28,021 nt of DNA, from assembly GCA_022539475.1 (NCBI GenBank), contig VCMS01000336.1, positions 1 to 28,021 on the forward strand, read 5' to 3'. Shown piece by piece: positions 1-28,021 of the stretch (positions within the stretch are counted from its first letter, which is position 1; each line of letters begins with the position of its first letter). This DNA comes from Gracilaria domingensis. Lineage: Eukaryota; Rhodophyta; Florideophyceae; Gracilariales; Gracilariaceae. The position numbers were made by a program, and so were the translations under genes. The notes beneath the pieces were generated by a model, which did no database searches, had not been told where the DNA came from, and was given only the letters and a program-made list of their open reading frames with translations.

Positions 1-2
1 TC

Positions 3-518: not shown

Positions 519-570
519 AAGGGTATTGAGATATATACGACACTTTTATTACTGAGATCTCATATCATAG

Positions 571-3691: not shown

Positions 3692-3769
3692 AGATAGTAG
3701 CATAAATTTATTGTTTATTACATTGTTACCTTTACGTGTTATCACGACTATATTCTCCGTCTCCATTGG

Positions 3770-4110: not shown

Positions 4111-4324
4111 TGAAGAGGGGACAGAGAGATGGCGCTTAAATAGTGGAAGGTGCGGAGGTGTACAGTGGATGTTTTGGCGGGAAATGGGATGAGGGAAACA
4201 GGGACAATCATGGTGCTGGATATAGCCCGTGTGGTTGGACAGTGGGGGTGGACAGCACAGTTTAGCTCGATTGCACTGTATCGCAGCGGAAACTTCGATC
4301 CAACTACTACTTCTTCTTCTGAAT

Positions 4325-6197: not shown

Positions 6198-6306
6198 ATA
6201 TCCCACTTTGTGATCAGAATACTAGCCACACAATACAAGACAAATGAGTATCTTCTAAAACCAATAACCATATTCGATCAACGATAGTAGAAGTAATGCC
6301 ACACAC

Positions 6307-7476: not shown

Positions 7477-7810
7477 CTACCCTACTTCCCACCCCCGAAA
7501 ATCCATTCTGACATCACCAAAGAAGCCCTGTATCATTTGGAAGACAATTACGCATCGAAACTCACCGAATAGATACCCTGAAAATGCTCTCGTTGCCCTC
7601 AATGTAGACATCCCCTTGGTTAGTTTTCTGTTGCCTAGTCTCTTCGTCCATCCCAACATGGAAATAAACACGCTTACCTCAACATTCTTCGCCATCTTCA
7701 TCTCCCCAACTCCCTCGAAAACATTTCAACTGCACAATTTCCAGCACCGCCACCGATCCATTGCCATCCAACGCACCTGCACATGCACAAACACAAGCTA
7801 GTCAAATACT

Positions 7811-7998
7811 CCGTTAGATACTTTTCCATCTTCGAAACTTTCCCAAATGCACACTTATCTACTTACCATGTGTCCCTACCTCACCAATAGCCTCGAAAAC
7901 ACGAATCAAACTGTCCCGAAAATCCTGCACATACACATAAAACAGTAACCAGTTAGCATTCTTATCAGAACTCGAACAAAAAACATCTCGTACTTACT
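7811..7998 (+). repeat. Direct repeat (exon plus introns), copy 1
   Basis: This matches 8363-8552 in the same orientation with many substitutions and few indels. The copies share a 58/59-bp exon-like core, both splice sites and the branch-point word on the minus strand. The exon-like core is better conserved than the flanks. Confidence 0.75.
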
Positions 7999-8025
7999 CC
8001 GACGCGTACCTTGCCATCCACACCG

Positions 8026-8133
8026 AACTCTGACGAACAAGAATTTGGAGTAATGGCAAAGAATGATTACCTGGAAGGCCTCGGTTGAGGTAATCATTCT
8101 TTCCATGACCCCAAACTCTTGTTCGTCAGAGTT
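8026..8133. repeat. Long inverted repeat (foldback), 46-47 bp arms, 15-bp loop
   Basis: Arms are 8026-8072 and 8088-8133, with a handful of mismatches. The loop is GGAAGGCCTCGGTTG. On the minus strand the right arm reads as coding sequence and the left arm looks like a short intron, with CCAG before GTAATC and an end at GTTCGTCAG. A folded transcript would pair the putative intron with its upstream exon. Confidence 0.8.
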
Positions 8134-8362
8134 CAGGGTCATTAGCATGATTCCTCTAGAAACCCAACCACCCAGCCACATCGTAACCATTCTCCCTTAT
8201 CCACTTCACCTCAAAAAACACGTTACACATAGGAAACGAAGTAAACCACCGCCTTCCGCCCCATCCCTATTCCACTTCCAATCCAAAGATCCCGCACGCT
8301 ATAACTCCATGAACCTATCGCGCTCATTCTCGCAAACAGCCCCCGCCGCGCAATCACATATC

Positions 8363-8552
8363 CCGTTAGCTAACTCTTCGCTCTTCGAAACATTCTCAAA
8401 TGAACACTCATCTACTTACCATGTGTCCCCTACCTCACCAATACCCTCGACAACACGCATCAAACTGTCCCAAAAGCCCTACGCATACGCATACAACATT
8501 ATCCAGTTAGCATTCACATCAAAAGTCGAACAAAAAGCTTCTCAAACTTACC
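8363..8552 (+). repeat. Direct repeat (exon plus introns), copy 2
   Basis: Second copy of the unit at 7811-7998, about 550 bp away. In this copy the exon-like core has one extra G in its G run, which changes its length from 58 to 59. Confidence 0.75.
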
Positions 8553-9082
8553 CATAGGCCCCCGCCCAAGACATTTACGCTAACCTGCTTCCAAATCCTC
8601 TCCGTGCGTCTCGCAAAATCACGTAACGTTCCGCTGTTAGACTTCGCAAACACCATCGTCTGTCTCTTGCAGATGCTAGTTTTTGGCGAGGGTCGTCCAG
8701 AAATTGGCAAGGGTTGTCCAGTAAATTTTTTGAAAAATATCGAGATCAATTATTTCAAAATTTGGAGATAATTGCTTGGGTCGTCCAGAATCGCTGTGCA
8801 GTAAATACTGGTGGGTTTTCCACTCGTGCTAGTTCTTTAGTCGAGGGCTACCTGAACTGTATTTCGCGAAGTCTAGGTTCAGTTTCCATTAAGGTGCACA
8901 TTACACGGTACCTTCTGCGGAATGGTACCCTGCAACGCATGGAATACTAGTGCTAGTACAGATGATGCCCATTATGAAATCATACCGTTTTATTCGTATC
9001 TATTCTTCTATCGACCGCTTTTGCTAACCACTACTTCGCTATATTACATGTACCATTTCCCCATGATGGATCGGGTGTAGGC

Positions 9083-9239
9083 GCAATCTGCGGCAGATGC
9101 CGCAGACTGCACCTCCACCAAATTGCGGTAACGGTAGAACACATACGCACTCCGAGAGGATGAGGCGCGAAGCGCCTCATCCTCTCCGTTCCTCATGTAG
9201 GGAACCATGCCCAGATGCATGGTTCCCTACTTGAGGAAC
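9083..9239. repeat. Cluster of three hairpins
   Basis: Hairpin 1 (9083-9110) has the core TCTGCGGC and its complement around AGAT. Hairpin 2 (9154-9186) has a perfect 15-bp stem, GAGAGGATGAGGCGC, and a 3-nt loop. Hairpin 3 (9188-9239) has a 23-bp stem with one mismatch and loop CCAGAT. No open frame crosses them. The stem lengths are far above chance, and three in 160 bp suggests structured or transposon-end DNA. Confidence 0.8.
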
Positions 9240-9280
9240 CTGCACCTGCAACTCGTGAGCTACGTACGCATCAAAAGTCA

Positions 9281-9419
9281 TTTACCTGTATACGCAAGCG
9301 GAAAGTATCCATAAGTTAGTCAATGATCCGTTGGATACATTTGAAATGCGATGGAACGTACCATTGATAAAGCAAAACAGAAACGTTGCGCTAGAAAAGT
9401 CGAGGGACCTAGTAACTCC
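9281..9419 (+). repeat. 139-bp direct repeat, copy 1
   Basis: Begins TTTACCTGTATACGCAAGC and ends GGGACCTAGTAACTC. The second copy is at 9654-9792. Differences are about ten substitutions and a 1-2 bp indel. No protein motif is seen in either. Confidence 0.85.
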
Positions 9420-9653
9420 CAAAATTAAAAAGAAGAAGGAAAGGGATCGGTTAGATTACCAGCCCATCATCATCGTAAAGCGCGAAAGGTGTCGAAGCGA
9501 GAACTCACAAGCAAGGACACCAAGAATGCCCATGCAGCAAACATACCGCAAGATGCGATAAACGAAAGAGCAGCCTATGTCCCAACCAAGTACCAGAATC
9601 GCCTATCCCGAACAGCCAGAGATCGATCTTGAGAGACGAAATGAAATTGGTCG

Positions 9654-9792
9654 TTTACCTGTATACGCAAGCAGAAAGTATCCATATGTTAGTCAATGCT
9701 CCGTTGGATACAGTTGAAATGCGATAGAACGTACCATTGATAAGAGCAAAACAGAAAGGTTGCCCTAGAAAAGTCGAGGGACCTAGTAACTC
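9654..9792 (+). repeat. 139-bp direct repeat, copy 2
   Basis: Second copy of the unit at 9281-9419, 373 bp away. The spacer (9420-9653) is unique and non-coding as far as I can see. Confidence 0.85.
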
Positions 9793-10060
9793 GCAAAAGT
9801 AACCCAAAGCCTTTTTCCTGCCGTTTACATGTCGCAGAGCGCGAAGAGACGTGGTGAGGATTGGTTAGTTTAGAACAAAGATACGTAGAAGGAAATGGAA
9901 GCACGTACGAAAAGACTGCACGGAAAGACTGCACGGAATACATCCGTGAGATACGGATGCTGTCCGCTTTATGGAGGCGTCCGACGAGGGCGGAGAAAGA
10001 GAATGAGGTACGCTTCATGTCCGCTTAATGGAATCCATTCTCAGCACGCTACTTCGTAAT

Positions 10061-10124
10061 CCGTCGTACTTTTTTCCGCCCTCGCATTTCGTAGCGAGTG
10101 CGAGGGCGGAAAAACGTACGACGG
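10061..10124. repeat. Hairpin upstream of the transposase gene
   Basis: Two 26-bp arms (10061-10086, 10099-10124) pair with one mismatch around a 12-nt loop. Weaker pairing continues outward for about 15 bp (CTACTTCG..CGGAGTAG). It lies about 370 bp before the transposase ATG and could be a foldback element, a subterminal structure of the element, or both. It does not resemble the TIR family at 19750-21227. Confidence 0.75.
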
Positions 10125-10489
10125 AGCGGAGTAGAACGCGAGGATGGCACGGATCACGACGGTAACAAAAGGTCGGACGTCGGACGGGCGGGGGCGGCGG
10201 CGGAGGGAAGAGATATATTTTTCTGTGCGAGATTGGACAATTGTACAGCGTACAACGTTGGGAAACCACAGGTTTATAACCAGTGGTAGATAATACGAGA
10301 AGTACACCCTTGTGTTGAGGTCGACGTGTACCTACGTTCCTTTTTGAACGAAAGCACGTGATTTAAACTCAAAATATATTCTCCGTTCTGAGCAAGACGT
10401 CGATATTGAATGTCGCTCGACCTCCTTCTCCCTTCGGACGCCCTTCCCTTGCAGTCTTTGTCGTCGTTTCTCGTTCATTTCTTCTTCCC

Positions 10490-13400
10490 ATGGTCTACTA
10501 CTGTACACATAAGAAGCGTGGGTGCCCCTTCGTTACTCGCCGAGGAGTCTTATCTCTTCAACAGCATGTCAACCATTGCCCGTTTCGTCTGAAAGCAGCG
10601 CTGGAAGACGACAATAGCCAGTCCATTCGGAGAAGCAAGCGTCTCAAGCTTTCCGCACCCGCGCCCGCATCTTCCGAAACGGTCACTGCCCCTTGTCGCC
10701 TTCCCGAGCCTCCGGTGTCCGAGGACATCGTCGACCCCACTCCGTGCGCCCCTCCCATTCCGGACACTTCGCATTGTGTTTCTCCTTCCCCGGGTCCCGC
10801 GTCATTAGAGCGAGAACACGGAAGCAGTTCCCGCCCAGTGCCTTCTGAAGAGACCCTCGGTGATTTGCATATGGATTATCTCACGGTTTGTCTGGCTTCA
10901 GTAGCTTCCAACCTTGGTCATCGTGAGGCTGACGAGCTACTTGGGCTACTTCGGGACCCGCGATTCTCGCAAAAGCGATTCAACGAGACCATAACAAGTT
11001 CCAAGCGCTGTACAGAACTGAAGAACGCCATTTTCGAACGATACGCCTCAAAGGACGGTTTCAATCGAAAAACTGTCTCGCCAGAAGGATGTAAGTTCAG
11101 CGCCACCCTCTACACGAGAGACCCCGTTCAGACACTTGTGAAACAGCTCCAGTTGGCTAACAACGAAAACACATTCTTCCACCCTATACCTCAGACCCAC
11201 TCCACGAAAATATCTCACCCCATGTCCGGCTCTCTCGCAAGAGACGCCACCTCAAAACTTAAGGAAACGGTCATGGGCTCTTTGGATAGTAGAATAGTGT
11301 GGTACTCCCAAGAAATAAGTTACAGTGAATCTTTCGTAGGTCTTCTGCAGGTATACACCGATAAGTCTTCAACAACTCTAAAGCAAACATCGGTTACCGC
11401 CTATCCTCTTCACCTCATATTTCTCAACTTCTCCGACCAGCTTCGCCGTAAGTGTATCCGTGATGACCTCACAGTAGTGGCATACGTCCCTACCACACTG
11501 ATCGAGGTTTCCGCATCTGAAGCAGACGCAATGCCATTCGTTTCTAGCAAGTCTCTACGCGAGTCCAGGATGCAAATCCTTCAAGAATCTCCTCGTCAAG
11601 TCCTGGAGCCCATTCTAAATCTCACGCAGAAAGGTTTTCAGTTCATCGGCGAAGACAAACTAAGTCGAGTGTGCCATCCTCTGCTTGCAAGTTATTGTGC
11701 GGATATTCCTGAGGCTAAGGACATTCTGTCCATTCTTCATGGGACCAAAACGGAAAGCCCGTGTCATAGATGCAAAGCCCCTCGCTCATCTTTATGCAGT
11801 CCTATTACCACCTCATTCAACGGACGTTCTCAGAAGCACACGAAAAGCATCCGAAAGACATACACAGCTATCTTGCAACATGCACAAAAAGACGAGGCGG
11901 AAAGACGTCCACGTCGTGCGAGGGAGAAGAGATCTCAAGCGGATACTCTGATGCGTTCAAATTCCATATCTCTCATTCCTTCGTTCCTCGAAACTTCTGT
12001 AAGCCTTGGAACGATCCCGGGATTGTCCCCATACAGTCTGTTCTCATTCGAACCATTACACAACTTGCATCTCGGCATCTCAAAGCTGATAAAAACGGCC
12101 ACAATCGAGAGACTGCAGTCAGACACCCTGTGCACCACAATAGGAACATCTGCATCGCGTTCATTTCGAACGATACGCACCCAACTCCTGAACCATGCAA
12201 ACGCAATTCTAGCTGCCATAGAACGCGATTCTCCTGCCAAAGGTTTACATATCGATTTCTCCACGCAGGAGAAAGGCAAATCTTTGAATGGTATCTTCAC
12301 GAAAGACGGTCTCCGTGGAATGCTGGAGGCCAAAAACTACAAAGCACTTGACATGGTCTTCCCCTTCATAGGAGCATTCTTTGACATATGCTGTGGAGAA
12401 CAGGACGTTGCCCCAATCACAACCGTTTTCTCTCAGTACTCGGACTTGCTTTCGACCTTATTCAGATACAATCGTGACCCGTATTGGACTGAAAGCTCTC
12501 TCCTGTGTCTTAGTTCGGAGATTGAAGCCTTCAAGCGTTCCGCAACAAAGACTCTGGCGGATTTTCATCCCTCCAGACTGGGAACTCTGAAGTTTCATCT
12601 TCTCGATCATCTCGTGGACGATATTCGCCGTCTGGGAAGTATCAAGTACTACGACGCAGGCATATACGAACATGCACACTTGCTATTTAAGAGACACTAC
12701 AAAAAGACGTCCAGAAGAACAGCAACGGCTGTGGAGGAGACTATTCGCTCCATTGAGCACGGACATGTTAGAAAGCAATGGAATGGCAATACTCCTTACC
12801 AGCGTAATCCAGGTCTACCAGGAACTTCCACACAGCTTCCTCGGTTTGAAATGAGAGGGCGTTCTTTCACTTTACGAGCTCTTCAACAATTTGTTTCAAG
12901 TATGTCCAGTTCAAAAACATGGACTGCTGTTAGAGAGATGTTCTCAAGTACGGACACAAGGTCGATTCTTGACCAAATTGGTGAACAGGCCCTTCCTCCT
13001 TTCCTCAGTCTCGTGAAAGAAACACTGGATGAGCACTCTATTACATACTTCCCAGAAAAGACAAGGATAACTCTGGTGAATTCGGCCCTCGTGAAAGGCG
13101 GTTTCGTTCCGACTCTTGAACACTTCGATTCGTCTTCTAAGGCACTTAAGCTGGGACGACCCAAATACCCCTTCATCCAACGTGTCTTCGCTTCTCCAGC
13201 ATTTGGTCTCAGTAGAAAGCCAAAGTTTTCCACTGTATTGGTAAGCGGAGAAGATTCAGAGACTTGGGTTGCCCAGGTAGTCGCTCTGATTCGAATATCT
13301 CTCCTTGATTCTGCACTTACCGCACCGGAGGTGGTATTCGTCCGGTAGTTCGAGGTTTTACCCCCCGCAACAAATATCGACCACATATTGAAATGCATTT

Positions 13401-13669
13401 CTTTACGGTGGGCTACAAACGATGAAAAGAACCACAGTCTTCCGTTCCCTCGTCATTCCAAAGCGGAGACTATCGTAGAGTTAACTCCTTGGTACGGGAT
13501 GGTTCCGGCTTCTGCACTACAGGGAACTGTCCATGTTGTTCGCTCCAACTACCCTGCTCCACCTTTTTGTCCTCCACTTCAATGGTTCCAACACCGATTC
13601 TACATCAACAGATTCTATCACGATTCAGATGAAGGACCAACTGAGCACGTTGATTTTGTACAGCCTTAA
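10490..13669 (+). pseudogene. Plavaka/TNP2-like (CACTA-related) transposase with in-frame amber
   Basis: The start is the ATG at 10490. An N-terminal zinc-finger-like CTHKKRGC..H..HC leads. The RNase-H-like core follows: VYTDKSSTT with the likely first acid at residue 291, then AYPLHLIFLNFSDQLRRK and VVAYVP. Next come GTKTESPCHRC, FEPLHNLHLGI with Glu521, and KFHLLDHLVDDIRRLGS with YEHAH (Glu727), the block shared with Plavaka and TNP2 transposases. A TAG at 13346-13348 follows codon 952. The same frame then stays open another 107 codons to 13669 and holds a C-terminal segment (VPASALQGTVHVV, WFQHRFYINRFY) of the same family. One nonsense change is the only defect. The 3' end overlaps the convergent gene at 13666 by 4 bp. 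The 952-residue part might still be active. Confidence 0.75.
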
Positions 13670-16116
13670 ACATTAAGGGCTCCATCTTCTACATGTTCAC
13701 CTTGTAGTGCCTTTTCTTGTGATCCTGTGCTAATTCCGAAATTGTTCATGTCCATTTCCCTGAACTCCATATCCCCTTCCTCGCATTCACCAACGAAGCA
13801 ATCGCTAATAGAACCCAATCTTCGGCTCACACTGTCAATAAGAAATTGTTCTTTCACAGTGAGGTAAAGTCTTCCGTTCGACGGCATTCGATATCCAAAT
13901 GTAGCCTCTCTCATGTCATTACCAAGAACCTTAGTCCAAACTTCCGTTGTCGTTCCAAAATTATGAAACTCGCTGGAATTGGTCCTCAAGACACGTTGCC
14001 TAAAACCCCCCAGAACATTCTTTAAACACAGAGGTAGCAGTTGGGCAAACTTCTTTGTAAACAGTTTCTGTCTCTGGCCACCCCTTGACACATCCGTACT
14101 TAGAAGGCTCACAACCGTCAACACCCAAGCGTCCAAACGTGCGAGCAACAGTATTGTGCCATCTAAAAAGGTGCCGGTATCCTTGTCTTCCACATCATAC
14201 CCAATAAACTCCTTCAGCACTTGTACCCCGACACGGTTTCGGAAGAACAAGTCTTGATCTTCCGTCAGCATATCCTCAACATTGTCCGCATTGGAGTACT
14301 TTAGACGAACAAATGGGGCTTTTCTCCACCATGAAGTGTTCAGTACACCATTTTCCTCGAGACGCAGTAGGTTCTCCTGCGCTTCCTTCAACTGCATTGT
14401 GATTTAGTCAGCATTCTCTTCTTTCAGCTTTGTTCTTCTCCAAATCAGATCGTAGCCCAGGAGCAGAAATAGTTTATCCCTCGTATTTCTCTTCCGAACC
14501 ACGACGTCACTCATGGTCTACCGCATTCTCTGCCTAAGGCACATATCTGCATAAAGTTCCAGTATACACCTGTCGGTAAGAGACGCTTTTCTGATACCTT
14601 CCCAGCTCAACTCCTTCAACTCGCTTTCAACCATTTTCTTCAGCAAAGCATCTGGCCCCCCCTCTACTGACTTTTTGAACATGCCAAAACTGCCCAAGAG
14701 CTCCACGGGGTTTTTAGGAACCATGTATGAACCACCTTCCTCCGGCTCAATAAGCGCTTCCCCACTCTCAGTTGCGTCTTCCACCTTCTCGGCACGGCTA
14801 CCCCAATTTCGGGTGAGCGACTCACCTTCGAGCCATAGCTCACTTGTTTCTCCCCTTGACGACGTCAGCATGTTGTGATAAGCTGCTCGAGCAACCCCTC
14901 TAAACTAGTCACACCCCTCAATTTTATGCTTCTTTCGACCTGTCTGCCCAGGTTCACCAGCACGTGTACTCCTATCTCCCTCCTGTTTCAGTGCCCCCCT
15001 TAGCCCTTCAATGACTAGATCCTTCTCCTCAATCCTCTTTTTCAAAGCCGTACTCTGCTCTTAGGTGACCTTCACTAGAATACCCCGAACCATCAAGTCC
15101 TCTTGTAGCGTCTTAACCTTTTCTTTCAAGCAACTCAGTTCATTTAAAAGATCAAGTCTGTTCATAGAGGTTGAATTCACACCAGTGTGGATATTTTCCG
15201 GTATTTCCCTAGCCTCTTCGGCGATAGGCCCCGATAATGCCGCAGGATTCGGTTTTATTTCGTTATCGGAACTATCCTCATGTGCCACAACCTTAGACAC
15301 GAGAGGCTGCAGGCGTTCTGTGTCCACCCTTGGCACGGCTCCGAGCTCCAACTCCCGTGTATGTCCTCCTCCATGGCATGGTATATCAGATGAAGTGGGT
15401 CTCGTACGAGCTGCAACGGCCCCCGCTCTGGAAAGAGGGCAAGGTCGAAAAGTAACTCGTCTATCAGTTGTCTCTCGATTTCTTATTGTCTTTCTCCCTT
15501 GTCCGGACCCATTGCGAGACATAATAAGATTCATAGTGGCCTCAGTTCTAAAAGACAGGGTGGGACGTGACGATCTTAATATATTAGGGTTCTCACGACT
15601 TCTCGTCATTTTCCCTCGTTGTCCAGATCCACTGGGCAGCGTAACCCGTGCCCCAGTAGCCCTAGTCTTCGATATCGGCGAGGGACGTGAAGTTTTTGGT
15701 GCCATACGAACCTCTTCAGTTCCAGTTGCCATGCCCTTCTGTCCTGACCCGCTGGGCCGAGTTACCTCCTCTTCTTGGGGAGCAGACAGAGATGCACGAT
15801 TTTCATTACCGGCAGTTGACGGCACGACATCGTTCGCTGATCCACGAATTCTTGACGCAATCCCAGAAGACACTCCGCTGCAAGATGGGCGAAAGAGTAC
15901 TGTAGAAGGACGCCCACTTACTCTCTCCTTCGTCGTAGACGACTTTCGTTTAGGAAGTGCGGTGCTTGTAGCCTGATTCGTATCATCCGATGCTCTTCTC
16001 TTCTTCTGTTCACTCTTGTTCCGCTGCGTACTATTTCGCTTTCTCGGCGTTATACCCATGTTGTGGAGATAAACGAGTAAATGAAACGAAATGTTTTGGG
16101 AGGGGGGGGAGTGCAT
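13666..16116 (-). pseudogene. Repeat and coiled-coil protein gene of the element, four in-frame stops
   Basis: Three open stretches (16116-15061, 14871-14518, 14397-13666) lie in exactly the same frame. They are separated only by stops: TAA 15061, TAG 14905, TAG 14518, TGA 14410. I see no indel. The start is the ATG at 16116 or, more likely from its basic context (MGITPRKRNS), 16059. Order: basic Ser/Thr-rich N-terminus, three 40-residue repeats, an acidic linker, a leucine-rich coiled coil (LLNELSCLKEKVKTLQEDL) continuing past the first stop, then a mixed alpha/beta C-terminal region. I recognise no family; a DNA- or chromatin-binding accessory role is a guess from charge and context. It is convergent with the transposase (4-bp overlap) and lies 152 bp downstream of the methyltransferase-SET gene. 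Confidence 0.6.
15388..15750 (-). repeat. Three in-frame tandem repeats of 40 residues (120 bp)
   Basis: Each unit starts GSGQ followed by a basic segment (KGMAT, RGKMT, GRKTI), then a charged stretch and RP.P.S...A. Units occupy residues 123-162, 163-202 and 203-243 counted from 16116. Spacing is conserved although most residues have diverged, which indicates selection or slow drift since amplification. Confidence 0.75.
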
Positions 16117-16268
16117 GGTTCAGATATTCCGGGAGACTTCGCAGTTCCTGCTTTTTAGGAATTTGAGGTGCCCAATGGGTCGCAAATATCGGCTTTGCAA
16201 ATAGATGAAGAGCTCCATTGTACATGTACAACGCGTATTGAAGGCAGCTGCAACATTGACAAGCATAT

Positions 16269-19200
16269 TTACTTTCTATTCCGTGCTGCATTCATCCATT
16301 GCTCCAATGTCAGGGCCCGGTCCCAGGCGTACTGCTCTCCGTGGTTGAAATACAACTCTTCGCCCCTCTCAATGTCTCTTGCTGCTCTACAACGAAGTAG
16401 AGCATAGTTAGAAAGGTCGGACTTAAACTGTATCACGGACTTTCATTCCACCATCTGCATATTGGCACTTCTAGTCCTGTTCGACCGAGGCTGCGATAAA
16501 TCGGGATCTCCGGCATGATATCCGGCGTCGTTAATGTAGCCCCCGATACAAAAAGGCGCCGAGACAATGTAGACTTTGCTCTACTTTCTATCCTGAGCCT
16601 GTCCTGGTCTGTTCCTCAAGTGCAGAAACTCCGAACCAGTCACAGTGACGATCATAGAAAACAACTTGTACCGCACAGAAGTTGCTCCGAGACAGCCAGT
16701 TCCATACGTTAAGTGTCTTTCCTTCCGGTTCGTCAGATCTGTGTATAACAAAGTTCCATAAAAATGACAGATAGTTTCCCCAGCCAATATCTTATGTTCC
16801 GTGAACACCCCCATACCAGCACGGGGATGTCGAATCTTAGAAGATGCTACATGTAACCGATAGCGATTGGCTTCAACAGTCAACAGCATATGCATATCCA
16901 TTAGATTTAGAGCTCCTCGGTACTTCTACTCCCAAAGATCTACAGTATGCTGTCCACACTTGTCGACAAAGTCCCAGTCCTTCCAGTATCTTCCTAGGAA
17001 CTGAGTAATATGTGCAGGCATCACTTGGTACTGGGGGTATCCAAATGGAGCCTCCCACTCAAGCCGACCTCGGTCCCGATGTGGAACCCGTTCATAAGTC
17101 GTTGAAGCAGCATCCACCACCTCCTGTTGAACCAGGATGTCATTCTTCCCCCCGCGAAGAACTTCGGCCATAAGAGTCGTTAGATGGTGCTTCGCATGGG
17201 CGAAACATGGCCTATTCTTCTCGCACCCCAAGAATTTCCTATGCTTTGTCAGCGATAGGCACGCCATACCCGTAGAAAAAGTTCCCGCGAACATGTCCAT
17301 GACAAGATCACCCGGTATTGTGAAGCGACATATCAACTCTTTCATCAACTCCCTGGACTTCTGCTCCGGTCTTATGTACTGCCCACTTGGTACTGAACTA
17401 CCTGGCTCATGTACCTTCCATGTCAACCACTCCCCCGCTCTCGGTTTTGGCACCCGGTCAATTACATTCCTGTTAGCCGGGAAAGTAGAAGGAATGAAAT
17501 TGTTCTCCTCAAATGGAGTAAGACTGGCTTCCTCGGATGGTCGCAATCCACGCTTCACCCCATGAACGGCGTACTCCGTTACGGGCTGTATCCCAAACTT
17601 CCGTGGATTCCCTCCAACATTACTTCGATCCCGGATGAACACCAGTGGATTCCCATCCACTTTAAACGAAGGCATGAGTTCTGGCTTACCTTCGCTTCCA
17701 GCTTCATCTTTCGTACTCGCCGTTTCCGAAAGTATCCTGTGCCAAACATGAAACTGTGCCATGGCACAGAATATAATGAAGTGCCCACCTGACCGAAGCG
17801 CGGAACTTATTAAGTCAGCCGTACTGATCATGTCATCCTCACTGAAGACAAGGTGAGCACTATTCCGTTTGCTCCTCTTCCTTCAAGTGTTAAAGGGAGG
17901 GTCTGTTAGAACAAGCTGTGCCTCACCCCCATAAAATCTCACTTTGATTCACAAACGTTTCATGTGTGTGCCTCAAGTCCTTCATGTTACAGTTGTGCGC
18001 TACAAAGTGCGACTTTCTCATTCCCTCCCACACCTTTTCCATATTCATTCGAAGGAGACTGGATATTCCCTTCGTGGGCGGCTCAATACCATTCTTTTCG
18101 ATTTTGTACCCGGCAACCCGAGATTCATGCTCCGCACGGTTCACCGGCTTCTCGAAGTCGTCGCTATCGGAGCTCACGAGGTCTATATACTCTCGACGAG
18201 GTGGGGGCGGGGCGGACTTGGTCGAAGAAGGTTCGGCATTACCGGAAGTTTTAGGAGTATTCGTCAGTTCAATATCGGGTTTCGCGTGAATGGCTACATT
18301 GAACCCAGCCGCATGACGCATATCCTTTATGGGTTTCCATAGCAACTCCGAAAAGTTCTGAAATCGTGCACGCAACTCACCTGAGTCAGAAACAGATACG
18401 GTATTCATCCGTATCTCCGAAAACTCTATCCAGTTCCTCATCTGATCAACCCGTAAGCTGTAGAGGCTATCGTGGGTGCATGTGGCGTCGAGGTCTGTCA
18501 AAAATTCCTTACCCAGTATTCGGAGGTTTGTATCGCATTCATCGCTCAAGGTCTCCACCGATCCACTAGTACTGCTCTGTGGCACATCCTGTGTGTGGAA
18601 TCGAGTACTCTGGCTTGGCGGGGCATAACCAGACTCCCGTGTCTCGAGCGCTGTATACTTCAACGTCTGCATATTCATGTAAATGTGTGGTTTCACCATG
18701 TGCTGAACGTTCGTGTATCCAAGATGAGCCGCAAAACAACTCCATGCCCATACAACCTCACCGATAGCGAATCCCAGTCGATCGCAGTTGTCTTTGGAGA
18801 ACGACGTAAAAGTGGGTATGTAGAAAGATGGTGCATGGTTCACTCTTCGTTTCTTTTTCGGTTGTTTCTTCTTCATCATTCTGATGTTGTCGTTCTCTCC
18901 CATTATGTGGCCGAGGTATGATAAGTATATAACGACCTCAAATGGGTTCACTGCTGTTGGTGGGATAAAAACTGCCGTCTTCAGAACCTGCTTTTTCCTG
19001 GTCATGAAATAACCAACCAGGCATCGCACCGGTAGATATATACCCTTATCCATGGAGAGAAGGAAATAATCGCGGAGTCTCTGGTCCTCATCCCCGTCTT
19101 TCTTGTCAAGAAGCATCTTCACAAGATAACGTTGCTCCACAGGTTTGTTATTCACAACACTCTTTCGTAGCTGTTGCAGTGTCAAGTTCTGCAGGTTCTT

Positions 19201-19434
19201 GGAGTTAGTGGCCTCCTCAAACATCTTCCTTTCCTCCGGAATACCTCCTCAGTTCTCAGCGCAGAACTCTATTAGCCCTCTAAACACCACGTCCCGTGGC
19301 CGATCAGGGGCTCCATCGCTGTTTGCCAAAGCATCGCGAAGAACCAAGAAAAGTCTGACATATGCATGGAACGCCGGAGGCGGAGCACTCATGTCGATAG
19401 AATGTATCTCCTCTCCATCATCGGTGGAATCCAT
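16269..19434 (-). pseudogene. DNA amino-methyltransferase fused to a SET domain
   Basis: The ATG at 19434 lies 29 bp after a TATA-like ATTTAAA. An N-terminal region of about 500 residues, unassigned, leads to LVLTDPPF (17903-17892), motif IV of N6-adenine-type methyltransferases. About 200 codons later come RPEQKSRELMKELI and GDLVMDMFAGTFSTG (about 17291), the motif I/X region. This IV-before-I order is the beta class, common in bacteria and phages. The same frame continues into a SET domain: AGMGVFTEHKILAGE, FCIGGYINDA, GEELYFNHGEQY, ending in TAA at 16269. Breaks are TGA 19249, TGA 17883 (three codons after DPPF), TAG 16926, TAG 16581, TGA 16443 and one extra G in a G run at 17926-17930. 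DPPF favours N6-adenine over N4-cytosine. The fusion is inferred from frame continuity; a TAG separates the two parts. Confidence 0.75.
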
Positions 19435-19442
19435 TGGTTCAC

Positions 19443-19532
19443 TACAAGAACGGAGGCGAGCTTTTAAATGGCGACTTAAGCTGGGCACCCCAGTTTTCCG
19501 TAGCTCCTCCCAGCGCACTGCCAGTCTCGTCC
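19443..19532 (-). promoter_or_regulatory. Promoter-like block upstream of the methyltransferase-SET gene
   Basis: This 90-bp block recurs in inverted orientation at 21451-21540. On the minus strand it contains GCCATTTAAAAGCTCGCC, a TATA-like core, followed by CTCCGTTCTTGTA. The gene's ATG follows 9 bp after the block. It lies 361 bp inside the right-end TIR. Promoter function is inferred from position and conservation. The block is also open in frame, so part of it could be coding, but it has no ATG. Confidence 0.6.
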
Positions 19533-19749
19533 GAGTAAGTGTCCGCTCACTTCTGAGGTCGGTGTCCGTGCCGCTTTGAGCGGGTGCGATAGCGTCGCGT
19601 GTCGGCCACGTTGCGATTCGGAGCTATTGGAAAGGTCGCGTATTGTGCTAATAGTCGCGGATCAAGTGGTTGTGAAGCGCTAGTTTTGTCTAGTTTGATA
19701 TATGTGCACGGCGTGTGCAGCGAAATCACTGCCGAAAGTGCCAGGAGGA

Positions 19750-19830
19750 ATGTTTTGGGAGGTCTCCTGAGGGTGCCAGAATGTGGCCAGAACGTGCCCG
19801 TGGGCGGGAGGGTCCGGTGGTGTTAGGGTA
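19750..19830 (-). mobile_element. TIR, right-end orientation, interior to the left
   Basis: About 81 bp from TGTTTTGGGAGGTCTCC to GTGTTAGGGTA, homologous to the TIRs of the 1201-bp element and, inverted, to 21146-21227. Shared blocks are GCCAGAATGTGGCCAGAACGT and a G-rich stretch before the terminal GTGTTAGGGTA. It is separated by 2 bp (CC) from the next element. Confidence 0.8.
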
Positions 19831-19832
19831 CC

Positions 19833-21033
19833 TACCCTAACACGACCGCCCCCCCCCCCCCCCGCCCGCCGGCACGTTCTGGCCACATTCTGGCGCCTTC
19901 CCGGGACCTCCCAAAACACACCACCCGGCACTTCCTGCACCCACCGCGTCACCCCAGTGCACCATCCCGTCTTCTCCACCCTCCAGACGCTCCCTAATTC
20001 CCACGCGCACCACACCTACCCTAGAGAAGAGGATGGTGTCGAGTGTGAATGATGTGGGGGACTTTATGCATTCTGCGCCGTGTTCGACGACGGGGGCTGA
20101 TAAACCGGATGCACCGCCGATGGCGATGGCGTGCGCAAACATGGCGGCCGCCCCTGGCGCAGCAATACTTAAGAGCGCCATCGATAGCAGTCTTTTCTAG
20201 TCTAGTGGTAAGCTATGAAACAACTTATATCTCTCAGTAAACTAATCACTAATCTTTACGCCAGTCATCGACTGTGCACGACGCAATTCTATCCCGGAGC
20301 CGTAAGACCGTTACGCGCATGCAGCCAATCGTAGGGCAGCCGCTGTGCTCGCCAGCCACCGCGCCCAACAACAGTCTCAATCCGAACCCACAACACCGAG
20401 CACTGCTGACACCAGGTGTGAAGGGCGTTGCGAACGCGCTTCACACCCTTCCGTACGTGCCCTCCCTCTCGTCGTACCACCTTTGTGCCATAAACACAAA
20501 ACGTCACAGTTCGTAGCCTCTATGGCAGCCTCGCCTGCTCCCAGAGATTCTGTAGTGGGGCACATCCCTCGCGCGCTCGCCGGTCAAGTGCCATGTGGCA
20601 CAATGCAACTGCCTGGTGCATATACTGCTGGTGGCCTTGTTCAAGACAGGTATAGGGACTACTGTACCATGGTACTCAGCGAACAGAGTAGTGCCTTGCT
20701 CGCTGAGTAACCCTCTCAGTCTAAAGTTGAGTGGTGTACATCCCTGCAGCGTGTAGAACAGGTGGGAATCACTCAATGTTACAGATTTGGTCACTGATTC
20801 AGTGACCGATAGCATCTCGGAAAAGATATGGTGATCGTTGAGAGAGTAGGTGTGGTGCGCGTGGGAATTAGGGAACGTCTGGAGGGTGGAGAAGACGGGA
20901 TGGTGCACTGAGGTGACGCGGTTGTTGCAAGAAATGCCGGGGGGGTGTTTTGGGAGGTCCCGGGAAGGCGTCAGAATGTGACCAGAATGTGCCCGCGGGT
21001 GGGAGGGGGGGAGGGGTCGGTCGTGTTAGGGTA
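19833..21033. mobile_element. 1201-bp non-autonomous element with about 190-bp TIRs
   Basis: The left arm 19833-20022 starts TACCCTAACACGACC. The right arm 20845-21033 is its reverse complement with scattered mismatches and ends GGTCGTGTTAGGGTA. The internal 820 bp encode nothing I can support. They contain a hairpin around GGTGTGAAGGGCGTTGCGAACGCGCTTCACACC. If TA is read as target-site duplication, the element proper is CCCTAACAC..GTGTTAGGG; otherwise TA is part of the TIR. No transposase is encoded, so it would need one in trans. Confidence 0.85.
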
Positions 21034-21035
21034 GA

Positions 21036-21143
21036 TACCCTAACACGACCGGACCCCCCCGCCCGCGGGCACGTTTTGGGCGATTTTTTGAAAAATGTGC
21101 GATTTTATGCCGGCGGGCGGGGGGGTCCGGTCGTGTTAGGGTA
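21036..21143. mobile_element. 108-bp miniature element made almost only of TIRs
   Basis: The arms begin TACCCTAACACGACCGG and end in its exact complement, with about 30 bp of perfect pairing. The centre is AT-rich (GATTTTTTGAAAAATGTGCG). It is separated by GA from the 1201-bp element and by CC from the TIR at 21146. It looks like an internal-deletion derivative of the same family. Confidence 0.85.
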
Positions 21144-21145
21144 CC

Positions 21146-21227
21146 TACCATAACACGACCGACTCCCTTCCGCCCGAGGGTACGTTCTGGTCACATTCTG
21201 GCAAACTCCGGAGACCTCTTAAAACAC
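21146..21227 (+). mobile_element. TIR, left-end orientation, interior to the right
   Basis: Starts TACCATAACACGACCG (one change from the family) and runs through CACATTCTGGCAAACTCC to GACCTCTTAAAACA. This is the mirror of 19750-19830. Its interior side faces the ParB-like gene. Confidence 0.8.
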
Positions 21228-21450
21228 ATGATTCGCTACATCGGGCCGCCGGTAGGTTGGCGCCGCTGTCCACCTGTATTGGCGGGAGTAGGCTGTGCAT
21301 GAATGTGAATGAGTGTACTCTTGACTACTATACTAAGCATGTGAAGAGCACGATTAGAGAGCGCGACCATTGCTCGCGTGAGTCATCGTTGCGCGTACTC
21401 CACGACTCTAAAGCGTACAATCAGCGTGCGAACGGCCACGTACAGGACAG

Positions 21451-21540
21451 GGACGAGACTGGCAGTGCGCTGGGAGGAGCTGCCGAAAGCGGTGGGGCCC
21501 AGTGTAAGTAGCCATTTAAAGGCTCGCCTCCGTTCTTGTA
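21451..21540 (+). promoter_or_regulatory. Promoter-like block upstream of the ParB-like gene
   Basis: Inverted copy of 19443-19532. It has the TATA-like ATTTAAA at 21514-21520 and the downstream GGCTCGCCTCCGTTCTTGTA. It lies 368 bp inside the left-end TIR, almost the same distance as its partner (361 bp). The gene's ATG is 56 bp after the block. The function is inferred. Confidence 0.6.
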
Positions 21541-21596
21541 TCGTCCATAGCGAGCGTATTGTTGATATACACCTTTCACTGCAATAGCTGTTGAAC

Positions 21597-23834
21597 ATGA
21601 AGCCGACTCGTGTTCGAAAGCGTACGCAAAGCGTGGTTCCTCGCACTCGGCGGAGCATTCGATCATTGCAAGGTGGAATGCGGGTTTCTCTGCAGATGGA
21701 TATTGAGAATGAAGGAAAGGTGATAGTCGGGGAAGCGTTGTTGCATGGAATTGGAAGTGTTCTACGCCGCGAGTTGAACGGGAGGCAATTGGACCCAGGT
21801 CTTGTGGTGGTTCATAATTTTCTCATCAGTCGAAGCGGTCAAACGTTCTACCTTTACCGTGCGGATGGCCTGGATCTTCCACAATACATCAAGAATCTCC
21901 GGACGGCCGCTCTTTGGGATGAGAAAATGATGGAACCGGTGGCAGCCAGCATTCCGGCGTCCAAGCCACGAACGTTGAGCGCTATGAGTGAGGTGATGAC
22001 GCCGACAAGCCGCACGAAGCCAATTCGAAGTTCATCAACACCGAGAGGGAGCGCATCAGTAGCACCTCCGCGGGCCGATCCTTCGTCTGTTACGAAGCAG
22101 ACTATGGAGACAAGATCATCCCCAGCTACGAAACGGACAGGCTAAACAAAGTCTACCTCCGCTACGAAGCCCACTGCGCCGAGAAAGGCATCTCCTGCAA
22201 TGAATCAGACCGTCGACACAAGGGGATCTTCTGCCTCAAACAGACGGTTGAGCACGGGACGGCTGTGCAAGAAGAGGAAGATGAGATCATAAAAAGTCCT
22301 CTTCCGGACGCGGATGCGCAATCCACACAAAGAGCTGGTCCATCTGTACCCCAGACTGCACCAAGAGCAGCAGGCCGATGACGATGTGCTTCTGTCCGCA
22401 AGAATGGCACGTTCAAGTGTTTCTGGCGAGCGGTCTGGAACACAAGGGACATCTACTCGGAGCAAGACGTATAGACGAATTCTTCAGAAGGTCCCAAAGG
22501 TGAACCTCAATCACTATCGGATGGTTGTTGTTACTGTTGACACCCCTCTCGTGAGCATTCCTCCCAATTTACTCCGTGGAGTAAGTAAACGGCACGTTGA
22601 AGCCGTTGTGAAGAGTATGGAGGAGCGAGGGACATTGCAGTCCATGGGTTCTCCCGTGGGGTCCTTACAAGATGCTACTACGGGACAGAGGGATACCGAC
22701 AAGGAACGCCTAACGAAAAAGTGCTTGATTGTGGATGGTTTGCATCGTCTGGAAGCTATAAAATATTTGGCTGCGACTGGTGCACCGAAGTGGAAGAGAT
22801 TAGCGAAGTTTTGGCGTTGCAATCTGCTGATACGAAGAGATGGGAGGCCCATCGGGATGAAGGATTTGTTATGTGTTGCTTCGTACCTCAATGAGTCGAC
22901 GAGTACCATGCGAAGGATGATGTGTGCGGACAAGATACACTCTATAGTTAGTGTGGTCGCCATTCTAATTGAAGATGTTGAGGGGATGCCCCCGGCAGAC
23001 GTGGATCCTGCAGAAGTGACAGAAGTGTTGAAAGAGAGCCAACTGATTGGGACTGTGCAAGAGCGTCAGTATCTGAGATATGCCACCGTCGCCCTGCAAC
23101 TCATGTCTCGTGAGGGAATGCTGGCCCATTTCGAGGATATGTGTGAGAGTGTGAGTGACATAGGTCTCACACATCTGTCCCATACTCCGCTATATGTTTT
23201 GGATGCCGAGGAGTTTTCCTTCATTCTTGATTGTCTTCAGATGTTTCTATTGAAGGGCAAGTCGACGAAGAAAAAGCAATGGAAAAACTTTGAAGAGGTT
23301 CGAGGTTTCTTTTATGATAGAGCAGTGTCTATGTTCCGCGCGGCTCGAGCAGTGATGAATGAACTGAACGAGGAAAAGTCGATGGAAGTGTTCCTTAAAC
23401 GCGAAGTCAGTCTTTCTGCTCCATCAAATGAAGATGATATTGAAGACCCAGACAACAACGCAGCTGTGTATCAGTTTCTTTTGGGACAAGTTGTGAATTT
23501 CAATACATTGCCGCGTGTTCGGATCAGGACGAACTCAATTAGAACTGCCACGACTTCAGTTCAGAATCGATTACGGACGATGCTCAAGGTAAATCCGCCT
23601 CCCGCACCAGTGAAGCAGTCCGTGACGAAGAGGAGGACTCCAGCTGCTGCTGCTGCAACATCTGCCAATGAAGAAGGGGAGCCGCGAAGAAGTGCACGGG
23701 AACAGGCGCAGGTGAGTTATAGGGAAATTGAGCACGGCCGAAATCGAGGTGCCATAGAAGTTCTGGATAGCTCTGAAGATGAACAGCGGGCTCTGCCGAG
23801 GAAGAAACAGAGAAAGACTTTCACCAACAGATGA
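21597..23834 (+). pseudogene. ParB/sulfiredoxin-fold protein, two in-frame TAA stops
   Basis: The start is the ATG at 21597. One frame of 746 codons is interrupted only by TAA at 22143 and TAA at 22290, both in a Ser/Thr/Lys/Pro-rich linker. After a basic N-terminus (residues 1-30) and an unassigned domain (to about 120) comes the ParB-like region: VNLNHYRM.., VSKRHVEAVVKSMEERG, then LIVDGLHRLEAIKYL near residues 377-391. The last matches the GxHRLxA signature of ParB N-terminal domains, which bind or cleave nucleotides or DNA. The C-terminus is helical, then basic, with an acidic LDSSEDEQ motif and KKQRK. In phages and bacteria such domains often accompany DNA methyltransferases. Its TGA overlaps the ATG of the next gene (ATGA). 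A pair of frameshifts in the linker, rather than the second TAA, is an alternative reading. Confidence 0.6.
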
Positions 23835-25501
23835 GATCCACTCTGAACAGCATGACACCGGATGAGCTTATGTCTCAACTGAATGAACATGTTCTGAGAG
23901 GGAGGTCGATGCAGGTTCAGTTTGTGGCATTGGCAGAGGGAGGGAATGCAGAGAACGCAGGCAGTTCTGCATTTGTGGATGACGAAGAGCTTCTTGCTGT
24001 CACAGTTCCACGGGTTGTCACCGTCGAGAAATATGCTGCGCCAGACGATCAGCAAGAGACAGTTGGGGGTCGTTTGATGACGAGTACCTACAGCTCTTCC
24101 GGAATCTGAAGAGCACGGACTTGTTCGAGGAGACCGATATGATAGCCCACCGAACCCATCATGCTGCGGGTATGTGAGACTGAGGCCGCAGGAATGGCAA
24201 GGTAAGAAAGTAATTGAGCACAAGGACCCCTGGCTCAGATTCATTCACTTGCCGAAGGCACATAGGTCGGAGCTACTAATTGTCTCGGATCTCAGAGATG
24301 TACACCATCTTGTGTTTTGGCACGCTGCAAGAGCTGAACATCGCTTACGGGCGGAGACATTTGGTATGCAGTATCTTCGTATCCGCCCGACAGGTATGGA
24401 TGATGAAGAGGTGCTGTGGGTTGCTGCGAAGGAGCATGACGAATTTGGGCAAATGTTCTTCGCCCGGATGCAAGCTGAGCTAAGGCAGAATGGATATTAC
24501 GTTCTTGATGGCTTTGCGACGGATAATGGTGTCCCTAAATGGGAGGAGTTGGAAGAAGTTCGGGAGTTCGGAGATGTGTCAGGGAGGTTGGTGGACTTCT
24601 TCGAGAATGAGTACCGAGCGATGCCGGATATACGGAGAGGGGAGGAACAGAAGTCGTTTGTTCAAATAATCAAAGATGATGAAGGATGGAAGGACGGGAG
24701 CGATGGACGATTTGAGGGGAGAGTGATGTCGACACGTTGGGATACGGTGGAGAAGCCGGAGGATAATGAGGAGCTCAGGTGGGTTGTAAGGGCGCGTGCT
24801 TTACTTGATGTTCGAATGGGTAGAATTGCTGCGGCTTTGAGACTATGGGACAATGAAAGGGAAGCTGTGAAGATGTACACTCCGAAAACTGGTGGTCGAT
24901 TTCTGGCGACCACGAGAAAGTGCAAGCGCCAGACGATTCGCACCGACTTCAGTGGTCTGGTTACGAAAGAAACAATGAATACTGGTAACCCCGGATACTT
25001 TGTAATGGCCTCTGGGAAAGAGGGCTTTCCTCTCTGGGTGAGCGCTGGAAGCCATCAACTGGTGGGGATGAACAACCAACAGCTGCGAGTGATGTCGGAG
25101 GTGTATCCAGCGAAGAAGATAATCATCCCACCGTACTCTATATTAGTGGGCCGTGGTGATGTGACATATGCTGGAGCAAGTGGGAAGGACAAGGTGGATA
25201 GGCCTGAGTCTATGGTTTGCTGGTTAGATAACACATGTACATGGTCCCGGAGGGCTACGCACTACCTGATGCAGTTCATCGTGTACGGGATTTCCGATCC
25301 ACGTTTGTCAATGGTGACGAAGAGGAAGAGGCGGAAGATGAACTGTTGTCCGATAAGGAGGGTGAGGCGGTTGGCATAGAAGAAGACCAAGTGGTCGTGG
25401 AGATTGGTGTGGAAGCGGAGGCCGGTAGAACCGAAGTGCTCGAGAGCAGTAGTGATGATGATTTGCCAATAATGAAGCTGAGAGCGCCTCGAAGTGGATG
25501 A
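23831..25501 (+). pseudogene. 2-oxoglutarate/Fe(II) oxygenase-like protein, three frame shifts
   Basis: The ATG at 23831 overlaps the preceding stop. The coding pattern changes frame three times: at a G run at 24065-24069, at GGG 24168-24170 and near 25302. Each is restored by one added base. The beta-helix core follows QTIRTDF (24933-), LWVSAGSH, KKIIIPPYSILVGRGDVTYA and RRATHYLMQFIVYG. This is the pattern of a 2OG oxygenase: HxD site, GSH strand, GDxxHAG, then Arg for 2OG. Both metal histidines are replaced here: Arg at 24939 (HxD site, Asp kept) and Tyr at 25167 (distal site). The C-terminus is acidic (LESSSDDD), like that of the ParB-like protein. Family membership is motif-based; another double-stranded beta-helix family is possible. 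Confidence 0.55.
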
Positions 25502-25706
25502 GATGATTAGTAAATTATGAGTGTCTTGCGAGTATTACGAATAGTATACTATTGTAAGGCGATACGTATGAACATAGAAAAGGTGCGGCAGGCTGGTAAT
25601 TGAACAAATATCATACGTCTTTGTTCCCAGTTGCCTCTAATTGCAACATGCAACATGCTCGGTATCGTTAACATCATTGGTGGCATCATTCAATTCGCAA
25701 TTGAAC

Positions 25707-26722
25707 ATGAAGCGTCCTACCACTTCTGAAACTGCACTTAAGGTTGGTTTGAAGAGAAGTATGAAGATGAGAAGTCTATGCAGTTCCTGTCTATGCGGTA
25801 CTTGTGGCAGTATGGTGACTGTATCAAGAAAAATGGCAGAGGAACAGAGAGACTTGGCGGAAATTTCACCCAATACCTTGTCTAAGTTCATATATGCCAA
25901 TACTTACGGTATATTAAGTTCCGTTGATGGAACGTTGAGAAGAGAAGGAGCGTCAATTCCAGAAGAACTTGTGAAGTGTATGAAGTTCATTGACGAACGT
26001 GTTGGTTTCGGACTTGTCACAGGGGTGATGTGGGCGACGTGGAGGGGAAAATTAAAGGACTCGGAGACTATAAGTTTGGTGTGTCGGCGACTCATGGAGC
26101 TTTCTTCCGTTTCTCTGACGAGAGAGAAATTAAGGCTGCATTCAATGATCACTAGCTTGACCACACTGTTGACAGACTACTGTTCCTGGCAAGGGATTTG
26201 AATAGGAGGCATGGTATTGTGAATGATGGTGAGAAGGTGTTCGTAGAGACCAGAAGTGATAGTGGCCTTCCCAATTTCGTGTACAACAAACTGTGGCAGT
26301 GGAGAAAAGAAGTGGATTCTGCTATTGACGACCTGTTGCAGAAGATGGATACGTTTGTTATCTCTCCCGGCGATAAAAGTTGCGAGATTGTGGACAAGCG
26401 ATACAAAAAGAGAAGTGGAGGAGCAAATCTTGTGGACAATGAACCGAGATTTATTGATACGGATGACGTTGTGACGTCTGGAAGTGCTTTGAGCGACGGT
26501 ACTTTGCAAGAGGTAGGCGTGTACGGCGCTCACGTCAAAGAAGAGTGTATCCCGCGTGGAGTACACAATCTGTTCGAAAGCGTGGAGGATGTGCATTCGA
26601 CAATTATGCTGGAGGCTCTGTTGTACGGCTACGATGAAAAGCAGCACAATAAAAACGCCATGAATGATAAAAGCGTATTGAGATATATACGATCCTTTTA
26701 TTACTGGGATTCCATATCCTAA
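25707..26722 (+). pseudogene. HAD phosphatase-like pseudogene, right copy
   Basis: The start is the ATG at 25707. Motif I reads LSSVDGTL: the nucleophile Asp is Ser (25920-25922), while the second Asp remains. After GLVTG the frame is lost at a GGGG run near 26022 and continues in another frame (DVGDVEGK..). It then meets TAG at 26153-26155 and proceeds through DSGLPNF to FGSALSDG-like motif IV (here SGSALSDGT). The stop used by the left copy at 516-518 is changed here, extending the frame. It is convergent with 26744-27595. Clearly non-functional as a phosphatase. Confidence 0.75.
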
Positions 26723-26743
26723 CTAAATACCAGAGACGTCGTA

Positions 26744-27595
26744 TCACTTGAAACAAATTCCGAGAGCATTTCTAAACCATTGACACTTGCATTTTGTGTA
26801 CCCGTACAGTTCTGCCGCCCTTCTGATGGTCTCATGCACGTTCTCCACCCCATCAACAAGATATGTTACCGCTGCTGGAGGGTCGTCTCCCTTGACATGA
26901 ACTGCCAGGGTTGCCATTTCATATGGAGGACCATCATTGGAAGCATTCCCGAAAGCAAGGATTAAATGTGTTTCGAACTGGGGGTCGTTTTCAACCAAGG
27001 CCAGCGCCCCACTGTTCTTCGTAAAGCGAATGTCGCCTATGTCATAGTTTTCATCTTAAGGGTACGCAACCAGGTTCGGAAAGGATTTAAACACTTTTCA
27101 AATACCGGAGTTAACTTCTGTTTTCCACTTTGACAGTCGAATGTATGTGAAGTTAGGGAGTCCACTGTCTTTTCTAGTGCTCACAACTGCTTGTTGACGC
27201 TCTTTGTGAAGTCCATGCGATTCATTTGATGAGAGTGCAAGTCCCTTAAGTTCGGCTACACATCTTTCGTAGCCTTCCCTGTCAAGGTCTTGATCAATTT
27301 CAGTACCATTGGATAACCTCACCCGTGCACCTTGATTTCCAGAGATGCCAAAAATGTAGCCACCCAGGTGCTCCATGAAACTCTCGGCATCCTCTATATC
27401 TCGCTCAGTAGCAATTCCGAAACCAACGCGTGCATTGATGTACTTCATGCATTTGACTGTTTTGGCAGGAATGTTGTCCCCAACTCTTTTCATAGTACCG
27501 TCAATATCACTAATCACGGCGTAGCCATTTTCGAACATTTCGTTAGCCAGCTGCTGTGGAGTTACTTTTTGGGCTCTAATTTCTGACTTATACAT
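26744..27595 (-). pseudogene. HAD phosphatase pseudogene (copy of 571-1443)
   Basis: It shares the ATG (27595) and reading frame of the intact gene, with no indel that I can see. It carries TGA at 27098-27100 (Ser codon in the intact copy, C to G) and TAA at 27056-27058 (Gln codon, C to T). Motif I is kept as SDIDGTM, with the TL pair changed to TM. Motif II has ATERD in place of ATGRD. The last residues diverge and the stop lies earlier (after GICFK). Relaxed selection after duplication is the simplest account. Confidence 0.8.
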
Positions 27596-28021
27596 GTTTT
27601 GAAAGCTTTCGAAACAGTTTGTCTTGCGAATGGGTGTGGGTATACGAATGAGAAGGATGTGATAGATGTTCGCAAGGTGTTTCGTAGTATAAAAAGAGTC
27701 TACGAACGACCATATACGGGTATTGTAGTACTGTTTTAAAACGTTACTAAAACGAGAAGCTTTTGCATCGATTTGCAGTAAAGAACGGAAGATATATTCA
27801 TAAATTATATGTACGTGTTCAAGTGGGTAAAGAAACTATGAATATCCTCAACATGAGCTTAAAAATCAAGAAAAGTAAAACAACCTCCATTGGGGGTTGA
27901 TTCCCTTAAAAGGTTTACCTTACTTTATACGGGTGCCCCAAGTATTGCAAAGGCTTAGTTCTTCAGAAATATCACAATTTGTACTGGTTTCGTTACTAGT
28001 ATCGTGAACTTAATGATATGG
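27596..28021. other. Non-coding flank, conserved in the left copy
   Basis: Matches 1444-1873 closely. It contains the upstream region of the HAD pseudogene and no gene that I can support. Confidence 0.6.

Follow-up and report, generated by a model that had tools for sequence, protein, structure and literature searches.

Giant Plavaka transposons have reportedly been published in red algae, in Bostrychia moritziana. Transposon cargo that has already been described includes DNA methylases, ParB-like proteins, SET genes and TET/JBP enzymes (PMC12477816, PMC12730594; here and below, statements on cited papers refer to the part of their text that was covered). Here we analyze a stretch of 28 021 nt from the red alga Gracilaria domingensis (contig VCMS01000336.1, in the following C336), which we refer to as the window; it forms the start of this contig, one of 680 in the 77.9-Mb genome. 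We observed that a giant Plavaka transposon in the window carries a gene in which a bacterial-type DNA amino-methyltransferase (MTase) of the beta class is joined to a SET domain, and our tentative reading is that this protein allows the element to mark itself against silencing. In the literature searched, as far as its text was covered, no protein that combines SET with a DNA amino-methylase of bacterial type was found, although an earlier report is possible.

Among the closest described systems are the ParB–MTase accessory proteins of algal transposons, of which reports from green and red algae are mentioned; it has been suggested that these proteins bind to the transposon that encodes them and modify it. 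In Ectocarpus Sola1-1, ParB and MTase are found in one protein of 1104 aa (PMC12477816). The locus described here resembles them in that the bacterial-type N4C/N6A MTase and a tentatively ParB-like part are transposon cargo and that the MTase is encoded on the strand opposite to the transposase (PMC12477816), whereas its MTase forms a fusion with SET and a separate, divergent gene codes for the tentatively ParB-like protein. With the Plavaka giant repeats of Amoebidium (PMC11244446) our element shares the Plavaka transposase, the large size and the cargo genes, and the Bostrychia giants reportedly have these features as well. A difference is that tyrosine recombinases are described as cargo of the Amoebidium repeats (PMC11244446). 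The Bostrychia work is cited for EnSpm elements that are giant and carry accessory genes (PMC12477816), and in the text covered an MTase–SET fusion is not named for the Plavaka giants of either organism (PMC11244446, PMC12477816). Fungal Plavaka and KDZ transposons bearing TET/JBP are likewise DNA transposons with a DNA-modification enzyme; however, the fungal enzymes are thought to remove 5-methylcytosine (5mC) marks and to counter silencing, whereas two writer domains are present here (PMC12730594). The termini differ as well, as CGTCTGT..ACAGACG in our element does not match the TGT..ACA or CATCA..TGATG of fungal PlavakaA/PlavakaB (PMC12730594). A SET methyltransferase as transposon cargo, as we observed it, also occurs in the oomycete HarbingerS and MuDR elements, for which the text covered mentions no DNA methylase joined to SET (PMC12730594). 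Regarding the MTase itself, the bdelloid N4CMT is a host gene with an SPPY motif and a chromodomain and is connected to N4-methylcytosine (4mC), while our protein combines DPP[FY] with SET and belongs to a transposon. In a Pfam search with P0001, an intact genomic copy of the MTase–SET gene which served as reference for tblastn and for domain coordinates, only MTase and SET exceeded the cut-off, and no chromodomain did. CcrM and M1.HpyAVI share the beta-class fold and motifs with our protein but are stand-alone bacterial enzymes.

The first-pass annotation had placed such a fusion gene on the minus strand at 16269–19434. All motifs named there (DPPF, FAGTFSTG, GMGVF, YINDA and GEELYFNHG) are found in a single minus-strand frame of the translated window, and the proposed span agrees with the gene almost to the base. 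Using tblastn, residues 1–503 of P0001 (the N-terminal part) align to 19434–17926 on the minus strand with 90% identity and one in-frame stop, and residues 503–1045 (the MTase and SET part) align to 17927–16299 on the same strand with 94% identity and four in-frame stops; the start codon ATG is located at 19434. The window copy thus contains five in-frame stops in total and one frame break, which separates the upstream part from the MTase and SET part. Converted from P0001, the N6_N4_Mtase domain (residues 506–743; PF01555, 4.4e-15 on P0001) is located at 17205–17918 and the SET domain (residues 873–1032; PF00856, 3.4e-07 on P0001) at 16338–16817, both on the minus strand, and the TAG that had been noticed between the two parts at 16926 lies in frame at 16928–16926. 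For a profile search of the frame-joined parts we replaced each stop in the window's own letters by X: N6_N4_Mtase (5.8e-15) and SET (3.9e-06) both exceed the curated Pfam cut-offs, which were used as thresholds throughout, so the domain matches in the window do not arise by chance. Without read-through, the MTase piece passes Pfam by itself (1e-11); for SET, the amino half taken separately (0.048) stays under the cut-off. Since P0001 aligns across these stops and the frame break and both domains are above the cut-offs, the window gene is a pseudogene of a real fusion gene.

The reality of the fusion can be seen in the other copies of the genome, where the MTase frame has at least 126 matches (a lower bound, as 125 of 607 candidates were scored). 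We fetched 20 genomic stretches, mostly with a preference for copies with long open frames; two of them represent the window's own region. In 9 of the 18 others (L021, L023, L024, L026, L027, L028, L029, L030 and L032) there is a single open frame of 1055 aa, which codes for a protein of 1045 aa from its ATG, and in L025 and L033 the frame continues through YINDA and ends slightly early. A less selected sample is given by the 20 closest MTase matches, of which 19 lie outside the window: the frame continues through SET in 12 of these 19, including L003 with a stop inside the MTase and L013 ending nine residues early, and none of the 19 has a stop at the site of TAG 16926, with 7 of them ending before the SET end. 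A query of 358 residues, starting at motif I and reaching to the end of SET, gave 116 genomic matches (best 114 of 686 candidates scored), and 46 of them (hand count) span this query without a stop. Beyond this genome, a search with residues 440–1045 of P0001 yielded 13 proteins with 29–45% identity, all of them single predicted proteins in which the alignment covers the MTase and SET parts. It could be argued that two neighboring decayed genes were mistaken for one, as the TAG separates the domains in the window copy. This explanation is refuted by the 46 stop-free matches and the 13 single-protein homologues, and we regard it as extremely improbable. The fusion, which the first-pass annotation had marked as an inference, is therefore confirmed by stop-free copies spanning both domains within the G. 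domingensis genome as well as by fused homologues outside of it.

The N-terminal half of the MTase–SET protein is mostly helical and is undescribed. Within the open reading frame (ORF), DPPF occurs at position 521 and FAGTFS at position 725; this is motif IV followed by motif I, the order of the beta class. The N6_N4_Mtase profile matches, and DPP[FY] is kept in, all 14 proteins of an alignment composed of P0001 and the 13 homologues, so that the assignment as a beta-class amino-methyltransferase holds. The fold of the MTase domain agrees with the beta-class family: all 50 structural matches listed are MTase-like chains, with CcrM and M1.HpyAVI among the best. By DPP[FY] and fold, the only features that point there, the domain is most like N6-adenine enzymes, which makes adenine its predicted target. 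The SET assignment is likewise supported, as PF00856 reaches 31.1 bits on P0001 (cut-off 22.4 bits) and is found with E ≤ 0.01 in 13 of the 14 aligned proteins; the glycine pair (GxG), the Asn and the late Tyr are each kept in 13 of 14. Pairwise distances of the MTase and SET parts correlate (r 0.73, 0 of 5000 permutations, 13 proteins with P0010 dropped beforehand), as would be expected if both domains had travelled together. When the 14-protein alignment was compared with viral and genome contigs, no relative was confirmed by tblastn.

For comparison with the PDB we used a SET profile of 11 of the 14 segments (P0008, P0010 and P0011 left out). Its best match is EZH2, a silencing enzyme, and in rotifers a DNA amino-MTase works together with histone methylation to silence transposons (N4CMT/SETDB1; PMC8885841). 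Both observations would fit a fusion that writes repressive DNA and histone marks on the element, which either limits its own copy number or hides from the host in this way. We consider such self-restraint unlikely. The stretches matched in the PDB are short and local, and KMT5A and MLL are listed too, so the matches cannot set the specificity; furthermore, a self-silencing element gains little, and this family has many near-identical copies.

The gene was assigned to a mobile element in the first-pass annotation, and we indeed found it in a giant Plavaka transposon with a transposase and terminal inverted repeats. The transposase is encoded by an ORF of 993 aa at 10367–13348 (plus strand; PF18759, 6.3e-17, 62.2 bits, cut-off 26.3 bits), and in a genome search the 48 best of 1713 candidates all match over the whole length. 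The element occupies 8657–28021 of the window and continues to position 31948 of C336; from these two ends we obtain a length of about 23.3 kb. Its left terminal repeat CGTCTGT is located at 8657–8663 (plus strand). Five fetched left ends (L045–L049) show the same start beside different flanks and have CGTCTGTCTCTTGCAG in common, and all 39 other scored places (40 best of 692 candidates) start at window positions 8651–8659. The right terminal repeat ACAGACG could be read at 5686–5692 (plus strand) in an upstream copy of the same element and also in the fetched stretch L056; all 39 other scored main places (40 best of 706 candidates) stop near 5692, at query positions 2532–2548. The element ends thus form a 7-bp inverted repeat, CGTCTGT/ACAGACG. 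Plavaka target site duplications measure 2–3 bp; of four end pairs, two show one of 2 bp (AT in C158, TT in C16), and it is absent in C164 and in the element of the window, both of which may therefore be recombined. Along 1 kb of the right part, 39 other places, the best of 394 candidates, are 99–100% identical. Between the transposase and the ParB-like gene, the fetched copies remain collinear with the window for much of the sequence, some of them with internal gaps.

As one element carries both the MTase and the transposase, control of transposition has to be considered as well, for which bacterial Tn10-type elements use adenine methylation. The MTase would then modify the ends or the promoter and tie transposase binding to replication or strand state, and SET would methylate a partner other than histones, for example the transposase. 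We found no target site, nothing links SET to the transposase, and we regard this explanation as quite unlikely.

The MTase–SET gene and its neighbor start back to back, at 19434 (minus strand) and 21597 (plus strand), and three copies of a 26-bp palindrome are located in between, one exact (21022–21047) and two with one mismatch (19819–19844 and 21132–21157). The palindrome has the form GTGTTAGGGTA NN TACCCTAACAC, and its sites are near-perfect over 24–26 bp with a TTAGGG-like core. These three sites compare to 0.00 expected in the window, and in the genome we counted 1115 places, where the reversed control gave 0. Both ATGs are visible in 11 stretches, and all palindromes found there (1–5 per stretch) lie between them; the spacing is 109–117 bp in 15 of 22 cases. 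Exact sites occur in 16 of the 18 non-window 10-kb stretches, the exceptions being L023, which stops short of this region, and L036, which is masked. Folded as a single DNA strand, one palindrome reaches −31.4 kcal/mol (z −7.0). The palindromes are perhaps binding sites of the neighboring protein, which we tentatively describe as ParB-like. Its gene extends from the ATG at 21597 to 25379 (plus strand, 3′ limit approximate), divergent from MTase–SET, and is broken in the window into the open pieces 21588–22145, 22293–23834 and 24081–25379, assigned by eye against P0015. Residues 220–620 of the L028 copy are 98% and 92% identical to P0015 and P0016 of G. domingensis. These two proteins are publicly annotated as a Mediator subunit and a cell-wall-anchored protein, names which are likely misannotations of transposon proteins. 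By eye, the C-terminal region at 24700–25379 looks slightly like a cupin-type oxygenase; Pfam gave no match there.

The element contains further ORFs. Those of 352 aa (15061–16119) and 245 aa (13666–14403), both on the minus strand, have no Pfam match. Two opposed, interrupted groups of HAD-phosphatase-like cargo ORFs are located at 25641–27835, with Hydrolase_3 at 1.4e-07 on 27101–27835 and no Hydrolase_3 match on 25641–26198 and 26747–27055; the plus-strand group was assigned by eye only. Near the left end, two hairpin-forming repeats (9154–9240) are retained in many other left ends. A 17-base match to the left end at 24047–24063 (three mismatches) was rejected as right terminus, since the sequence continues through it without a break in all 39 other places scored (of 271 candidates). 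We also rejected a tandem unit of 26 kb; the ends of the window repeat because it begins in the right end of another element copy. This second copy occupies 1–5692 and carries as cargo an ORF for a HAD-type hydrolase (Hydrolase_3, 4.8e-13), a 415-aa ORF without family and a fragment of ribulose-phosphate 3-epimerase (2.8e-25). A first look for this metabolic cargo gave 394 candidates in the genome, of which 40 were scored. The sequence at 6150–7083 is diverged and multicopy; the places scored show 67–91% identity, and many of them share an end near 7083. The region 7080–8656 was rejected as part of the element: it belongs to another repeat family (40 best of 123 candidates), is interrupted by the element at 8657 and was found uninterrupted in L043 and L044. 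Insertion of one element copy into another is suggested, as the left flank of L048 resembles the HAD-type ORF by eye. Elsewhere in the assembly, eight genes of the phycobilisome type, with matches along almost the entire profile, lie on contig C680, as would be expected of a red-algal plastid.

How could the MTase–SET protein act on its element? The protein would bind the element, either by itself or assisted by the ParB-like protein of the divergent gene, for which the palindromes clustered in the promoter region between both genes may serve as loading sites. The MTase would methylate DNA adenines to N6-methyladenine (6mA), SET would methylate a lysine on nearby chromatin proteins, and both marks would keep the element's genes open in a genome otherwise silencing them. 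The escape from silencing is proposed by analogy with the fungal TET/JBP enzymes (PMC12730594) and the algal ParB–MTase proteins (PMC12477816). As a whole we hold this reading possible, slightly short of probable. Its extension to a self-propagating mark, where the ParB-like protein loads at the palindromes, spreads and brings MTase–SET, so that DNA and histone marks are linked and every new copy restores its own open chromatin once it has transposed, appears doubtful.

Several observations weigh against the anti-silencing reading. Most copies examined, including that of the window, are broken somewhere. Two domains that are always separate, a result which would have spoken against the fusion, were not seen; there is, however, a frameshift subfamily in which they lie in different frames, as 18 of the 126 MTase matches end at query residue 246–247 (hand count), and the three frameshift copies fetched (L036, L037 and L038) have MTase and SET in two overlapping ORFs. 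The fusion thus seems dispensable in some copies. This subfamily has still multiplied, which may be read as trans-complementation or as a working split gene. The ParB-like assignment is weak: phrog_3264 gives 1.6e-4 on the L028 copy and 0.0014 on P0015 and no match on P0016, no Pfam family exceeds the cut-off, there is no PDB match, and the predicted model has a pLDDT of 28.6.

Further points against it concern the SET domain, whose canonical motif is NHxCxPN. In 13 of 14 proteins the Asn is retained and the His is replaced by Asp, and P0010 lacks both; its substrate or even its activity may therefore differ, and judged by sequence the domain is a SET member by profile and not a canonical histone SET. 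P0010, which has no SET match, and P0003, which with 20.5 bits is just under the cut-off, both keep the MTase. Together with the frameshift subfamily, which separates the two domains, this could mean that only the MTase matters and that SET is a structural or decaying passenger. We think this rather unlikely: a SET match with E ≤ 0.01, to which P0003 also belongs, is found in 13 of 14 divergent proteins, in which Asn, Tyr and GxG are kept to the same extent, and the ratio of nonsynonymous to synonymous polymorphism (pN/pS) for SET is 0.40, close to the MTase with 0.32. These values were calculated among the nine intact ORFs (0.42 overall, 0.54 for the N-terminal part), which were selected as intact and whose pairs are non-independent, a further weakness of our case; against L021, two divergent copies showed values of 0.56 and 0.44.

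As a rule, the enzymes writing DNA marks and those writing histone marks are distinct proteins, which need to find each other. Here, one transposon protein contains both kinds of domain, occurs in many copies and is encoded beside a compact palindrome array. It adds a pair of writers to the known transposon erasers (TET/JBP) and ParB–MTase proteins, and if the mark were indeed self-propagating, the element would represent a selfish dual epigenetic writer built from bacterial and eukaryotic parts. Our findings raise the questions whether a mobile element may write its own chromatin state and whether a bacterial-type adenine mark may function in a eukaryotic genome.
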